Source of the DNA: a virus
Length of the DNA stretch: 44,620 nt
Strand: one strand, 5' to 3'
Virus record (IMG/VR): IMGVR_UViG_3300034073_004308
Coordinates: 1-44,620 of that record
Below are positions 7,645-41,118 of the stretch, piece after piece; within the stretch, counting starts at the first letter, position 1; each line of letters starts with the position of its first letter. The notes under the pieces were generated by a model that did no database searches, had not been told where the DNA came from, and worked only from the letters and a program-made list of their open reading frames with translations. Made by a program: the position numbers and the translations under genes.

Positions 7645-7727
7645 TGTTATCTCTTTTTCTTTCTCCGACTTTTGTCGGGCTAGTAGTTTGTGTTGGTATT
7701 ACTACGCACGAACTTTCGTTCGTGTGT
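7645..7727 (-). promoter_or_regulatory. Promoter cassette and hairpin leader for moxR-VWA
   Basis: Minus strand ACACAC (7722-7727), 17 bp containing CACGAAC-GAAA-GTTCGTG, TAGTAA (7699-7704), then CTACTAG, stem CCCGAC/GTCGG and a purine-rich ribosome site. Confidence 0.65.
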
Positions 7728-8211: not shown

Positions 8212-8287
8212 TTTGTTTCTTGCCTTTCCCGACTTTCGTCGGCTAGTAGTTTGTATCTCTATTACGCACGAACTTTCGTTCGTGTGA
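8212..8287 (-). promoter_or_regulatory. Promoter cassette and hairpin leader for gene at 8211
   Basis: Minus strand TCACAC (8282-8287), 17 bp containing CACGAAC-GAAA-GTTCGTG, TAATAG (8259-8264), CTACTAG, stem CCGAC/GTCGG, then GGGAAAGG. Confidence 0.67.
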
Positions 8288-10415: not shown

Positions 10416-10491
10416 TATTTGCTCTTTCTCCGACCTCTCGGTCGGGCTAGTAGGTGTTGTTATTACTACGCACGATAACTCAGGGGTGTGA
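10416..10491 (-). promoter_or_regulatory. Promoter cassette and hairpin leader for the 10415 operon
   Basis: Minus strand TCACAC (10486-10491), 17 bp ending GTGCG, TAGTAA (10463-10468), CTAG, stem CCCGAC/GTCGG (with a GAGA-type loop), GGAGAAAGAG. The -35 box lies in the end of the gene stopping at 10480. Confidence 0.66.
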
Positions 10492-18964: not shown

Positions 18965-19104
18965 GCTTTCCGCCACCGTCAGGAAACCGCGGCTTACTTC
19001 GGGTCGGTTATTCCATACTTCGCTTCCATGCGGGCAGCGAAGTTATCAGTCCCGTAGTTGTCAATCGCGTCCGTTAGGCGAACATATGTTCGGGTCGCGG
19101 GACT
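18965..19104 (+). repeat. Composite intergenic element, copy 6
   Basis: GCTTTCCGCCACCGTC (18965-18980), then AGTCCCG at 19048 and CGGGACT at 19098. Unlike other copies, the heptamer pair lies inside the 3' part of a gene. A 14-bp palindrome CGAACATATGTTCG (19079-19092) sits between them. Confidence 0.58.
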
Positions 19105-29478: not shown

Positions 29479-29517
29479 GCGCGTGTCCACTCGGTTTCGG
29501 GTGGCACGCGCTTTTTT
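29479..29517 (+). terminator. Rho-independent terminator
   Basis: GCGCGTG/CACGCGC with an inner CCAC/GTGG stem, followed by TTTTTT. The clearest terminator in the window; ends the 27925-29456 unit. Confidence 0.9.
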
Positions 29518-29534
29518 GTTGTATTGTTTGCCTC

Positions 29535-30044
29535 GTGAACACGCTCGGACTCGACTTGTCGCTCACTTCGACGGGCGTTTCCTACAACGGGAACACGGAA
29601 AGTATCCGCCCAACCACCCGTGGTGCTGAGCGTCTCGTCGAAATCAGAGACAGGGTGATGAACATCTGTGAAGGGCAACGCATACAGGTCGTCGGAGTGG
29701 AGGGCTACTCTTACATGTCCCGCAACTCTCAGGCGCACTCGATTGGCGAACTCGGCGGAGTTGTCAGGGTCGCCTTGTTCGAGAGGGGAATCCCGTACAT
29801 CGAAATCCCCCCGACTTGCCGTGCGAAGTTCGCAACAGGGAAAGGAAATGCGGGAAAGTCCGAAGTTGTGTCGGCTATCTCGGCGATGACGGGCATTGTG
29901 TGGGGTGGCGGAGATGGCGATGACCGTTGTGACGCTTGGATTCTCGAACAGATGCTTATTGCGAAACTCGGTTCGAGTGAATACGCTTGGTCTGCCCAAC
30001 AGTTATCGGCGTTGGAGAAAGTTGATTGGACGGGACTGTCGTGA
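29535..30044 (+). CDS. RuvC-like Holliday junction resolvase, 169 aa
   Basis: LGLDLSLTSTGV (Asp7), VVGVEGY (Glu56) and a C-terminal DDRCDAWIL (Asp130, Asp133) form the RNase H-like catalytic set of RuvC-type resolvases found in actinophages. It resolves branched DNA before packaging. GTG start with TATTGT seven bases upstream, so leaderless. Overlaps the next gene by GTGA. Confidence 0.86.
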   Translation: MNTLGLDLSLTSTGVSYNGNTESIRPTTRGAERLVEIRDRVMNICEGQRIQVVGVEGYSYMSRNSQAHSIGELGGVVRVALFERGIPYIEIPPTCRAKFATGKGNAGKSEVVSAISAMTGIVWGGGDGDDRCDAWILEQMLIAKLGSSEYAWSAQQLSALEKVDWTGLS

Positions 30045-30385
30045 CGAGAACACAACCGATTTCACAGGTGGACATCGAGCGTGAAATGATGCGTTTGATG
30101 GCGCAAATGGAGGAGGAAACCGAAGCGTTCGAAACGCTGAGTGTGGACTGCGCCAAGAAAGAAGCGTTGATGAAAGCAAATTGGGCGAAAGAGTATCTGT
30201 CTGCGAAGGGGTCTATAAAAGAGCGGGAAGCGTGGGCTGACTACAAACTGTCCGACGAGGTGTACGGATACAAGATTGCTGAGGCGTTGGTGAAAGCGAA
30301 ACGGGAGAAGTTGCTGTCCGTGAGGTCGGCGTTGGATTCGTTGCGAACACTAAACGCAAATGTGAGAGTTCAGGTGAACCAATGA
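30041..30385 (+). CDS. Hypothetical coiled-coil protein, 114 aa
   Basis: MTRTQPISQVDIEREMMRLM; almost entirely helical with long charged heptads (EALVKAKREKLLSVRSALDS). Small helical proteins at this place between RuvC-like and ParB-like genes occur in actinophages; a recombination accessory role is plausible but unproven. GTG overlaps the RuvC-like stop. Confidence 0.75.
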   Translation: MTRTQPISQVDIEREMMRLMAQMEEETEAFETLSVDCAKKEALMKANWAKEYLSAKGSIKEREAWADYKLSDEVYGYKIAEALVKAKREKLLSVRSALDSLRTLNANVRVQVNQ

Positions 30386-31696: not shown

Positions 31697-32368
31697 CTAG
31701 TTCTTCCCTGTGTCTAGGTTCGCTATGTATGCGACAGCCTTCGCTAACGACCCTTGCTCTGTGACGAGTTCATCAAACGCTTCGAGATACTCTTTGCCTT
31801 CATCGGTTGAGAGTTCCCTACGACAGTAGTCACGATAGTCGTTCAGTATGCGAGTCACGAACCCTGACATGTTTCGTTGAGGGGTAGCAACTTCACTACC
31901 CGTATCCCCGTACACGGGTTGCCCCCTGTCGTCGTAGTTCACTTTCACGAAACGGTATGCGGTATCACCTTCCCAAGTAGTGACGACAGTAAACAAACCT
32001 TCCATCACATCGGTTAGCGGATTCGTTTGGTATTCCTTCTCAAGGTCGCCACGCTTGTATCGTTTCGCTTCCTCTTCTGTCATACCTTCTGCGGGTTTCA
32101 TGAACACTTCTGCGGTGAACGCAAGCACATCAAACTTCATGAGACCTGTCTTTATGACAGCATCCAATGTTCGAGGTAGCGTCTCAACAAGTGTTTCACC
32201 ACCCGTAGCGTCAATGGTCATCATCTCATCTCTGTACGAAACAGACACGAACGAACTTGTATCTGTCACACCACGATTCATAAGACATGCTTCACTCTTC
32301 CTATGTTGAGCAAGTTCAGTGATGAAATCACAATACTTAGTCGCTAACGAACTCATACACTCACACAT
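31697..32368 (-). CDS. Hypothetical protein, 223 aa
   Basis: Mixed alpha/beta protein; segments SSFVSVSYRDEMMTIDATGG and LFTVVTTWEGDTAYRFVKVN are the most beta-like. ATG at 32368 follows GAAAGG almost directly; ATG at 32356 (MSSLATKYC) has better spacing and may be the real start. A TATGAT at about 32398 could be its -10. Not recognised. Confidence 0.72.
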   Translation of the reverse strand: MCECMSSLATKYCDFITELAQHRKSEACLMNRGVTDTSSFVSVSYRDEMMTIDATGGETLVETLPRTLDAVIKTGLMKFDVLAFTAEVFMKPAEGMTEEEAKRYKRGDLEKEYQTNPLTDVMEGLFTVVTTWEGDTAYRFVKVNYDDRGQPVYGDTGSEVATPQRNMSGFVTRILNDYRDYCRRELSTDEGKEYLEAFDELVTEQGSLAKAVAYIANLDTGKN

Positions 32369-32452
32369 CCTTTCATGTGTCTCTCACCTAGTTTCATCAT
32401 ACGAATACACATCACAAATCACCCGTAAATCACCCGTGAGCCTTGCGAAACT

Positions 32453-32620
32453 TCACGCCAACACACGGTCAAGACGATACGACTCACGCAACGCCTCAGC
32501 ACGAGACCCACACAACTTCACCTTCGCATAACGACTCTCAGTATCAACAACCCACCACTTACCACGCTCTTCATAACACGGTGCGATGTCATAACGATTC
32601 CGATACCTGTACTTAGCCAC
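32453..32620 (-). CDS. Hypothetical basic microprotein, 55 aa
   Basis: MAKYRYRNRYDIAPCYEERG, then WWVVDTESRYAK and a helix with REALRESYR-like residues. GTG start after GAGAGTGTGAGT. Good promoter 50 bases upstream. This pattern of a KYRYR start and WWVVDT strand suggests a small beta-hairpin-helix protein; function unknown. Confidence 0.58.
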   Translation of the reverse strand: MAKYRYRNRYDIAPCYEERGKWWVVDTESRYAKVKLCGSRAEALRESYRLDRVLA

Positions 32621-32670
32621 ACTCACACTCTCACTTTCATCAAAATAAACAAAACGGATAATCGCACAAC

Positions 32671-32699
32671 ACTTTACAACACGACGAAACGAAAGTCAA
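32671..32699 (-). promoter_or_regulatory. Sigma70-like promoter for the 32620 gene
   Basis: Minus strand TTGACT (32694-32699), 17 bp, TAAAGT (32671-32676). It abuts the iteron array, which starts 20 bp upstream of the -35 box. Confidence 0.68.
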
Positions 32700-32718
32700 A
32701 CCACAAACCACAAACAAA

Positions 32719-32828
32719 CACATGTTCGCAAACACGAACACATGTTCACACACAAAAACACATGTTCGCCCCCACAAACACATGTTCGCCCCCAATCACA
32801 CACAACAAACACACACGAACACATGTTC
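32719..32828. repeat. Iteron array, ACACATGTTC at 20-bp spacing
   Basis: Five copies of CACATGTTC with the ACATGT palindrome starting at 32720, 32740, 32760, 32780 and 32820, exactly 20 bp apart with one position (32800) empty. Two copies show GAAC-ACAT-GTTC dyad symmetry. The region 32621-32926 has no gene. Likely binding sites for a protein dimer: replication origin, operator or partition site. Confidence 0.78.
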
Positions 32829-32926
32829 ACACACAAAAAAGCCAAATAAGCGGGACTACAACCTAGGGGCGCCTCGACAGCACCGGGGGCGGGTGTGCGC
32901 CAATTTTTTGGTCGGGTGTGTTCTGT

Positions 32927-33661
32927 TTATTTTGTGAGAGCGGGGACTGTGATGGCTTGTTGTGCGATTTGTGTGTAGTGGGGGTCTATGTCGTAGCCGA
33001 TGTATTGGCGTTGGAGTTTGTGTGCGGTGGTGGTGGTTGTTCCGATTCCGTTGAATGGGTCGAGGATGATGTCTCCGGGTTGTGTGGTGAGGAGGATGCA
33101 GTTTTCGACGAGTTGTGGTGGGAATGGTGCGGGGTGTTGGTTTTGTTTTTGTGGGGGGATGTCCCAGATTTCGGTGATGTATTTGGGGTGTAGTTGGTTG
33201 CGGTATGTGCGTGGTTTGTTTTTGGTGAGCCAGTAGATGTGTTCGGTGTTGGGGAGGAGGTGGTCGTTTCGGATGTTGGGGGAGTTGTGGCGGTTCCAGA
33301 TGATGAGTTGGTAGATGTTGGCGTTGGTTTTGTGGATTATTTCGGTTGGGAGGTGGGCTTGGTTGTTGTGGCGTCGGGGTTTGTGGTTGAGGAAGATTGA
33401 GCCGTCTGGTGTGATGATGCGGTGGAGTTGGTTGATTATTTCTATTAGCCATTGTTGGTATTGGTGTTCTGGCATGTTGTCGTGGTATTGGTTGTAGTTG
33501 ATGTTGTGTTTTTGCCAGATTTGGTTGCTGTTTTGTGTTTTGCCGCCGTTTATGCCTTTTTTGTTGTAGGGGGGTGAGGTGATGACGGTGTGGATGCTGT
33601 TGTCGGGGAGTTGTTGGAGTGTTTGGGTGGCGTCGTTGACCGTGATTGTGTTGGTTTGCAC
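32927..33661 (-). CDS. DNA methyltransferase (N4-C or N6-A, beta class), 244 aa
   Basis: Motif IV TSPPYN at residues 28-33 precedes the SAM-binding motif DPFNGIGTT at 201-209 and the following IGYDID, the beta-class order. The TSPPY form is frequent in N4-cytosine enzymes but also in some N6-adenine ones. Target sequence unknown. GTG start without a ribosome site, 23 bases after the nuclease-like gene. Coding strand very A/C-rich. With its neighbours it could form a restriction-modification or self-protection unit. Confidence 0.9.
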   Translation of the reverse strand: MQTNTITVNDATQTLQQLPDNSIHTVITSPPYNKKGINGGKTQNSNQIWQKHNINYNQYHDNMPEHQYQQWLIEIINQLHRIITPDGSIFLNHKPRRHNNQAHLPTEIIHKTNANIYQLIIWNRHNSPNIRNDHLLPNTEHIYWLTKNKPRTYRNQLHPKYITEIWDIPPQKQNQHPAPFPPQLVENCILLTTQPGDIILDPFNGIGTTTTTAHKLQRQYIGYDIDPHYTQIAQQAITVPALTK

Positions 33662-33684
33662 GGTTTGATGTTAGTTGTTTTGGG

Positions 33685-34227
33685 TTATTTGATTTGGAAG
33701 ATTTCGTTGCCGTGGAGTTGTTGTTCTGTGGCTACTAGGCGGGGTCCGTAGCCGTAGTTGCGTTTTTGGGCGATTTGGAAGAATTCGTGGCGGTTGATTG
33801 CGCCGATTATTTGGAATTGTGTGGTGGTGCTGATGGTTATGGCGGTTTTGGGGGGTCGGTTGCAGTGGACGAGGATGCAGATTTCGGTGTCGGGTTTCCA
33901 GATGCCGTATTTGTTGTGGGCGGGGTCGTTGATGATGAGGTTGCGTTGGGTTGAGGTTTTGATTTCGGTTTTTTTGTTGTGGATGTGGAGGTCGTTGCCG
34001 TTGTCTGCGCCGATGTAGATGTTCCAGTCGGGTTGGACGCCGTAGTAGCGGGCGGCGATGACTTCTCCGCATTTGCCCATGAGTGCGATGCCTTCTGAGC
34101 CGAGGGTTTTTGCGTAGATTTGGTCGTTTACTTTGTGGTTGCGTTTGTTGGCTTGTGCTTGTTTGACCCAGGTGACGACGTGGATGAGTTCTTTGGCGGT
34201 GAGTGTCATTATTTCTGAGATGGGCAT
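33685..34227 (-). CDS. Putative PD-(D/E)XK nuclease, 180 aa
   Basis: GKCGEVIAARYYGV, then NDLHIHNKKTEIKTSTQ, gives the E...D-(x)-EIK arrangement of PD-(D/E)XK nucleases (Glu59-region, Asp ~98, Glu-Ile-Lys ~106). The C-terminal half is beta-rich. Placed directly upstream of a DNA methyltransferase, it is a good candidate restriction partner, but no experiment or search supports that here. ATG 34227; ATG at 34207 is an alternative. No ribosome site. Confidence 0.7.
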   Translation of the reverse strand: MPISEIMTLTAKELIHVVTWVKQAQANKRNHKVNDQIYAKTLGSEGIALMGKCGEVIAARYYGVQPDWNIYIGADNGNDLHIHNKKTEIKTSTQRNLIINDPAHNKYGIWKPDTEICILVHCNRPPKTAITISTTTQFQIIGAINRHEFFQIAQKRNYGYGPRLVATEQQLHGNEIFQIK

Positions 34228-34234
34228 GTTTGTT

Positions 34235-34594
34235 TTATTTAATGACGGCTGGGGCTTTGGGTTTTTGTTGTTTGGGGACGGGTCGGTAGATGTCTTTGTT
34301 GATTTCTTGTGATGGGTATCTGCGTTCTACGTCGTAGATTGCGCCGATTCCTTTTTCGGTTATGTGGTAGCGGGGTGTTTTGGGGTTGGTGTTGTCTTTG
34401 GTGAGGAAGTTTTGTTGGACGAGCCGTTTGAGGGTTTCTCGGATTCGTTTGGTTTGTATGCGTCCTGCTTGGAAGGTGTGATAGTCCTTGTCTGTAAACC
34501 ATTCCCGCCCTTTCCAGTGTGCCATCATGCGGGCGTAGCAGAGGATGACGTAGGCGTTGCTTCGGCGGGTGTATTGGGTGCGTATGTTGTTCAC
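34235..34594 (-). CDS. Winged-helix-like protein, 119 aa
   Basis: YVILCYARMMAHWKG, RIRETLKRLVQQNFLTKDNT, then PRYHITEKGIGAIYDV: helix-recognition helix-wing with a YHITEKG strand as in winged-helix regulators (MarR/PadR-like ends). It heads the methyltransferase operon and could control it. GTG start; TAGACT lies 7 bases upstream, so leaderless. Confidence 0.74.
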   Translation of the reverse strand: MNNIRTQYTRRSNAYVILCYARMMAHWKGREWFTDKDYHTFQAGRIQTKRIRETLKRLVQQNFLTKDNTNPKTPRYHITEKGIGAIYDVERRYPSQEINKDIYRPVPKQQKPKAPAVIK

Positions 34595-40725: not shown

Positions 40726-41118
40726 ATGACGACAGAACTCACCAACAGTTACTATTTGCCGTTCGACACCTCACTCGCTGCCTGTCGAGGTAGTGCGGAA
40801 ATCAGTCTGTTCTATCCAAAAGGTGAGTCATCTGCTCATGTCCGTTCAAGGGAACAGAAGAAAGCGATTTCTATTTGCATGGGTTGTGAAGTTCGTGAAC
40901 CTTGTGCGGAGTATGCAATCAAAAACGAGTCATTCGGCATTTGGGGTGGCATGACGGAATCGGAACGCGAGTATCACCGCATCGAGCGAAACATCGCGCT
41001 GCCTCAGGGAACCGTTTCGGATGTTGCGAAACGAACACGGAGACTTTACAACGACAAGGAGAGCAAACGACGCAAACGGCAGGCGCTCGCTCTTCAGAAC
41101 AAAGAGGAAACCAAGTAG
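40726..41118 (+). CDS. WhiB-family iron-sulfur transcription regulator, 130 aa
   Basis: Four conserved cysteines (Cys20, Cys51, Cys54, Cys60 in CMGCEVREPC) for a [4Fe-4S] cluster, then GIWGGMTESER and a basic C-terminus (KESKRRKRQ) for DNA contact: the full WhiB architecture. WhiB-like proteins bind region 4 of the housekeeping sigma factor in Actinobacteria. Phage copies (for example WhiBTM4) can repress host whiB and affect superinfection. Transcribed with the primase, 3 bases downstream. Confidence 0.95.
   Translation: MTTELTNSYYLPFDTSLAACRGSAEISLFYPKGESSAHVRSREQKKAISICMGCEVREPCAEYAIKNESFGIWGGMTESEREYHRIERNIALPQGTVSDVAKRTRRLYNDKESKRRKRQALALQNKEETK

Follow-up and report, generated by a model that had tools for sequence, protein, structure and literature searches.

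To our knowledge, few phage systems are known to be controlled by the LexA repressor of the host, and most of these phages are small and temperate. In GIL01, a small temperate tectivirus of Bacillus, the promoter P1 is held by host LexA at the sites dinBox1 and dinBox1b together with the phage protein gp7 (PMC4551915); these comprise a strong site plus a half-site, located immediately past the P1 start. The sites of LexA follow the motif CGAAC-N4-GTTCG in Bacillus (PMC4551915), and measurements in Streptomyces venezuelae, an actinobacterium, gave tCGAAC-N4-GNNCGa (PMC9380542). The tectiviruses of actinobacteria have been scanned for LexA sites, and none were found (PMC6950372). A partial literature search gave no description of LexA-box arrays in tailed phages of actinobacteria, which is weak evidence of novelty. 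A cluster of host-LexA sites in a phage is a known kind of element, and the multi-box layout described below appears, on this weak evidence, unmatched by the examples found.

The window analysed here (the whole stretch of 44,620 nucleotides of the virus record IMGVR_UViG_3300034073_004308) contains five LexA-type boxes in a row in an intergenic position. On balance, they probably form a docking cluster for the LexA of the host, which would make the intergenic hub SOS-responsive. The window aligns over its full length, at 99.9% identity, within a contig of 133,214 bp (G001). A second contig, of 100,569 bp (G002), likewise carries the array, and the two therefore represent the same virus; the searched three-box core was found once in each. 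The host is likely an actinobacterium, because two WhiB-like proteins are encoded (at 40726-41118 of the window and at about 29490-29770 of the reverse strand of G001, recognized by inspection of the translated open reading frames), the terminase is closest to those of Gordonia phages, and the primase-helicase is closest to those of Arthrobacter and Gordonia phages. Neither an S24 repressor nor a tyrosine integrase was found in G001 and G002, and no LexA domain is encoded in these two contigs or in G004 and G006-G009, all of which are possibly incomplete; the ligand of the boxes would therefore be the LexA of the host. The phages of the family with box arrays are apparently large and lytic. 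Like GIL01, the window phage is without a classical CI repressor and carries host-LexA sites of the CGAAC-N4-GTTCG type. Unlike GIL01, it is a large tailed phage, and its array is longer and placed upstream of a promoter; with no tyrosine integrase, LexA or S24 repressor detected in G001 and G002, the gene content does not point to a lysis-lysogeny switch of the GIL01 kind.

The decamer ACACATGTTC occurs on the plus strand in exactly five exact copies, starting at 32718, 32738, 32758, 32778 and 32819. The sequence-only reading had counted the five copies correctly and had placed them at 32720, 32740, 32760, 32780 and 32820, which is 1-2 bp too high. It had also described an exact 20-bp period with one empty slot at 32800. 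The period holds for the first four copies, separated by steps of exactly 20 bp, and the last step, from copy 4 to copy 5, is 41 bp instead of 40. The slot is indeed vacant: it is occupied by a degenerate unit (32797-32808, plus strand), in which the A/C-rich spacer is kept and the box is lost, and the phase of the array slips there by one base. Tandem Repeats Finder delimits a period-20 array at 32709-32839, and the autocorrelation of the region peaks at lags 20 and 40. In the A/C-rich stretch 32400-32860, the five observed copies of the decamer compare with no more than three copies of any 10-mer in 2000 dinucleotide-preserving shuffles, which rules out chance and establishes the repeat array as real.

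The full repeat unit is the dyad RAAC-ACAT-GTTC and not a one-sided decamer. This dyad (RAAC-N4-GTTC) matches a LexA box, which had been overlooked. Boxes 2 and 5 (32736-32747 and 32817-32828) are perfect copies of GAACACATGTTC with the core GAAC-N4-GTTC; boxes 1, 3 and 4 (32716-32727, 32756-32767 and 32776-32787) have the sequence AAACACATGTTC, with A for the first G (AAAC versus GAAC), i.e. one mismatch in the left half-site. All five are read on the plus strand. The array thus counts two perfect boxes and three with one mismatch, and the outer C and G of the consensus are incomplete in all five. With respect to actinobacterial and other Gram-positive LexA boxes (GAAC-N4-GTTC), the core, the dyad and the RYRY centre are alike, and identical tandem sites are found at bacterial SOS genes; the difference is the A in the outer position of three window boxes. 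Host LexA as the ligand is the simplest reading. A lone perfect LexA-type box, GAACATATGTTC, is located at 19080-19091 of the plus strand (context CGAACATATGTTCG), with no sign of joint action with the array.

A phage-encoded repressor or activator with a LexA-like site could use the same dyads as its operator, and the small winged-helix-like protein encoded 1.4 kb away (34235-34594, minus strand) had been named as a possible binder. We regard such a regulator as quite improbable. The distribution of the winged-helix protein does not track the boxes, as box-less G009 encodes it, and no copy was found in G006, G007 or G008, which have boxes. In addition, the site fits LexA at every defined consensus position in phages of very different gene sets.

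The use of the same site by bacteria in the SOS response is established. Searched for independently of the published motifs, the tandem pattern AACACATGTTC proved rare: the genomes of 85,000 species of bacteria and archaea gave only 30 stretches, and about 14 of these lie beside SOS-type genes, i.e. lexA and genes for Y-family polymerases, a DnaQ/UvrC-type nuclease and YneA-like LysM proteins. Eight such neighbors were confirmed with Pfam: LexA (L206, L212), Y-family polymerase (L192, L203, L204, L208), an exonuclease/UvrC-type protein (L205) and a YneA-like LysM protein (L197). One tested neighbor of a tandem site is a TetR regulator (L188), so regulators other than LexA, of the TetR type, can also be served by a box-like sequence. 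The single box CGAACACATGTTCG is present in 164 of the 299 genomes of one actinobacterial class, compared with about one for the reversed control. A scan of 2.9 million viral contigs gave 12 stretches with the tandem pattern AACACATGTTC, seven of them in the phage family of the window.

On the left side, the array is followed by two genes on the minus strand, the first encoding a protein of 57 amino acids (p57; 32453-32626) and the second a protein of 223 amino acids with function unassigned (31697-32368). The promoter-like sequence TTGACT-17-TAAAGT (32671-32699, minus strand) precedes the p57 gene, and chance alone would yield about one site of this kind; box 1 is found 16 bp upstream of the -35 element of this weak leftward site, which agrees with the earlier description of a promoter adjoining the array. 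On the right side, 22 bp after box 5, the last of the 50 CGGGACT copies of the 133-kb genome (32851-32857, plus strand) begins a conserved element of ~60 nt, CGGGACT-N30-GGCG-N6-CGCC-TTTTTT (32851-32909). Its right-hand part (32888-32909) is a rightward intrinsic-terminator-like hairpin, GGCG-N6-CGCC followed by TTTTTT, which is kept in L112, L113, L115 and L116 (the element starts there at 10477, 9772, 2053 and 9785, respectively). The conservation of a rightward terminator-like hairpin implies that transcription runs rightward from a start within or close to the array, and the element may be a terminator or a short RNA read in this direction. A structured RNA at 32851-32909 was considered and rejected: the terminator hairpin is kept among the relatives, but covariation supports such a structure only weakly. 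The DNA methyltransferase gene (N6_N4_Mtase; 32927-33661, minus strand) faces the array with its 3' end, and a BLAST search of the array locus against phage records returned methyltransferase matches only.

In the case of host LexA binding, each RAAC-ACAT-GTTC unit would represent one LexA box, and up to five LexA dimers could be accommodated side by side. The hub would separate the leftward unit (p57 and the 223-residue protein) from a short rightward transcript or terminator element starting from near CGGGACT. In an undamaged host, LexA on the cluster would damp the transcription leaving the hub, with box 5 located at the would-be -35 region of the rightward transcript, at a distance that is kept in L112. 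Infection or DNA damage would activate RecA, the self-cleavage of LexA would follow, and the hub would open; a phage with no repressor of its own would in this way take the alarm of the host as a timing signal. The binding of host LexA, the effect on transcription and the direction of this effect are what we infer from the sequences.

With the primase-helicase and the ParB-like protein as queries, ~140 stretches related to the window phage were gathered. Clusters of two to eight near-perfect CGAACRYRYGTTCG boxes are present at comparable intergenic positions in independent relatives, where the boxes are perfect over CGAAC-N4-GTTCG. The independent array-bearing lineages are few: the window, L112 and the G006-G008 group, with variants in L041, L077/L080 and L071. 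In the diverged relative L112/L127, three perfect CGAACACATGTTCG boxes, spaced by 17 and 22 bp, are found at the same place upstream of the p57 gene (the identity between L112 and the window is 68% for the 57-residue protein, 34% for the 223-residue protein and 70% for the ParB-like protein). In the window as in L112, 22 bp separate the last box from CGGGACT, though these bases differ, and at the place of the leftward promoter of the window L112 has TTGACA-17-TATGCT. The more distant family member G006 has seven boxes in 210 bp (spacing 16-42 bp), G007 has three and five boxes (spacing 15, 32, 36 and 46 bp), and G008 has two. All these boxes are CGAACRNRYGTTCG, and the reversed-pattern control gave no matches in the three contigs and one in G004. 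The genes beside the boxes differ, with p57 and the methyltransferase in the window and L112, and an SNF2-type helicase in G006-G008.

Since the spacing varies among the relatives (15-46 bp overall), the conserved feature is the box cluster at the intergenic hub and not the 20-bp period. The sequence-only reading had attached weight to the 20-bp phase, with dimers bound on the same side of the helix, and had looked to relatives for a conserved period; the spacings in L112, G006 and G007 are different, and neither idea is borne out. Its expectation that close relatives share the array is borne out in part: the fairly close L113, L115 and L116 keep CGGGACT and the terminator and lack at this place both the boxes and the 57-residue gene, and box clusters are present in L112 and in the independent relatives. 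These three box-less loci, the three imperfect boxes out of five, and the homologues of p57 that occur elsewhere with no boxes are points against a LexA operator. The possibility that p57 is a dedicated partner of the boxes, like gp7 of GIL01, was rejected, as its homologues elsewhere have strong promoters and no boxes. In this respect, a strong, near-identical promoter TTGACATATACTCACTACTGTTATATAGT is found directly upstream of the 57-residue homologues in the box-less L120, L124, L128, L137 and L149.

Bacterial SOS promoters contain one or two boxes, often between the -35 and -10 elements, whereas in the window five boxes stand in a row, essentially outside the promoter. Even weak -35/-10 hexamers flank only 2 of the 25 phage array boxes, compared with 23 of the 70 bacterial boxes, thus the construction of the phage arrays is not that of an ordinary SOS promoter. 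As the boxes are nearly all outside promoters, titration of LexA is a strong rival of the docking cluster: the boxes would have no local target, and hundreds of high-affinity sites on replicating phage DNA would soak up the LexA of the host. We consider this unlikely, yet a real possibility, and give the same modest weight to its outcome, in which the recombination, repair and nucleotide genes of the host would be turned on with no DNA damage. The clusters of two to eight near-consensus boxes with irregular spacing, the lack of a promoter around all boxes save the two borderline cases of 25, the different adjoining genes in different phages, and the failure to find a phage LexA or tyrosine integrase are all consistent with titration. 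It is less easily reconciled with only five sites per genome of the window phage, three of them imperfect, with the fixed 22-bp gap in two phages, or with boxes that are always found beside the same CGGGACT/promoter landmark. Taken either way, the boxes suggest a virus that either responds to the SOS alarm of its host or absorbs it. If this is true, arrays of up to eight LexA boxes in large tailed phages of actinobacteria would amount either to SOS-coupled phage control in a new layout or to a DNA decoy that draws off the SOS repressor; as a decoy, they would define a family of large actinobacterial phages that switch on host recombination and repair in the absence of DNA damage.

Besides a strong operator, a replication origin and a partition centromere had been proposed for the array. 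The operator fits best of the three, because the unit is a LexA/SOS operator and the clusters recur in independent relatives. A centromere bound by the ParB-like protein, encoded at 30382, 1.6 kb from the array, has hardly any probability: relatives of this protein (43-68% identity) occur in phages without any such repeat, no ParA was found among the genes examined, and the ParB-like gene has no visible partner.

In the case of an origin, the repeats would be iterons or accessory sites, and their likeness to LexA boxes would come from LexA control of origin transcription or from an unrelated initiator. The array resembles the iterons of plasmid and phage origins in its tandem dyads at about two helical turns and its A/C-rich spacer, and DnaA boxes lie beside similar boxes in the lineages of two relatives. 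In L041, DnaA boxes in four exact copies (TTATCCACA and its reverse) lie within ~100 bp of two CGAAC-N4-GTTCG boxes, and in the L071 group the CGTACATGTGTTCG repeats are directly beside the DnaA boxes TTATCCACA, TGTGGACAA and TGTGGATAA. Moreover, G007 contains nine 26/27-bp repeats between its boxes, and a primase-helicase is encoded 8 kb from the array of the window. The strand composition also flips at the array: the A/C-rich, strand-biased stretch noticed earlier is real and changes abruptly to G/T-rich at ~32860, but A/C bias here also tracks the coding strand of the adjoining genes. The iterons of origins differ from the array in that its spacing is not kept in the relatives (17 and 22 bp in L112, 16-42 bp in G006, irregular in G007), and no initiator was identified for it. 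A DnaA-box cluster is absent from the entire 133-kb phage, with a single one-mismatch DnaA box within 600 bp of the array, and the locus has no repeat in the three close relatives L113, L115 and L116. The GC skew, suggested earlier as a check for an origin, has no clear minimum at the array over the whole genome. Taken together, an origin at this locus is rather unlikely. Replication-initiator genes of Gordonia and Arthrobacter phages that matched the arrays by BLAST (E up to 10) were rejected, since the alignments cover the low-complexity, G-rich spacer and not the boxes.

Intergenic clusters of DnaA boxes (TTATCCACA/TGTGGATAA) are present in related phages at 15578-15657 of L041, 19584-19637 of L066, 16925-16978 of L071 and 2304-2336 of L051, and also in L063, L072 and L108; judged by sequence, they are candidate DnaA-dependent phage origins. 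Those of L041 and the L071 group are directly beside GAAC/GTAC-N4-GTTC boxes. The box variant CGTACATGTGTTCG forms four copies, 15-16 bp apart, at 16857-16914 of L071 and 21592-21649 of L106. It presumably resembles the cyanobacterial LexA motif RGTACNNNDGTWCB and could point to a host whose LexA has another specificity. The nine copies of the 26/27-bp repeat AAACCCGACCAAACTAGTCGGGAATC of G007, found between its two groups of LexA-type boxes (16338-16576 of L217), are iteron- or centromere-like.

A 20-bp tandem GCGGCTCGGAACGGACGTTC in G003, a viral contig of 19 kb (L006; ~3672-3723 of L030), is a three-copy match to the pattern with a different centre, and was set aside as it shows no link to the phage family of the window. 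Two GAAC-N4-GTTC sites of the window, at 7710-7721 and 8270-8281 (GAACGAAAGTTC, minus strand), were rejected as LexA boxes because they resemble GAAA-loop hairpins; the hairpin-forming sequence CACGAACGAAAGTTCGTG (minus strand, GAAA loop) is identical at the two positions, 560 bp apart. Scans of the window with Rfam and for tRNA genes gave no matches. CGGGACT occurs in the window in 45 copies, compared with 6 expected, in both orientations between 4387 and 32857, and the copies are often ~350 bp apart inside the genes at 21.8-26.3 kb. All 50 copies of the 133-kb genome lie within one zone of 34 kb (31201-65085 of the reverse strand of G001). In the window, the limit of this zone is the element adjoining the array, and the same element is its limit in L112, L113, L115 and L116. 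Finally, two gene modules, at 32927-34594 of the window and at 27.2-29.8 kb of the reverse strand of G001, have a strongly A/C-rich coding strand, unlike the rest of the genome.
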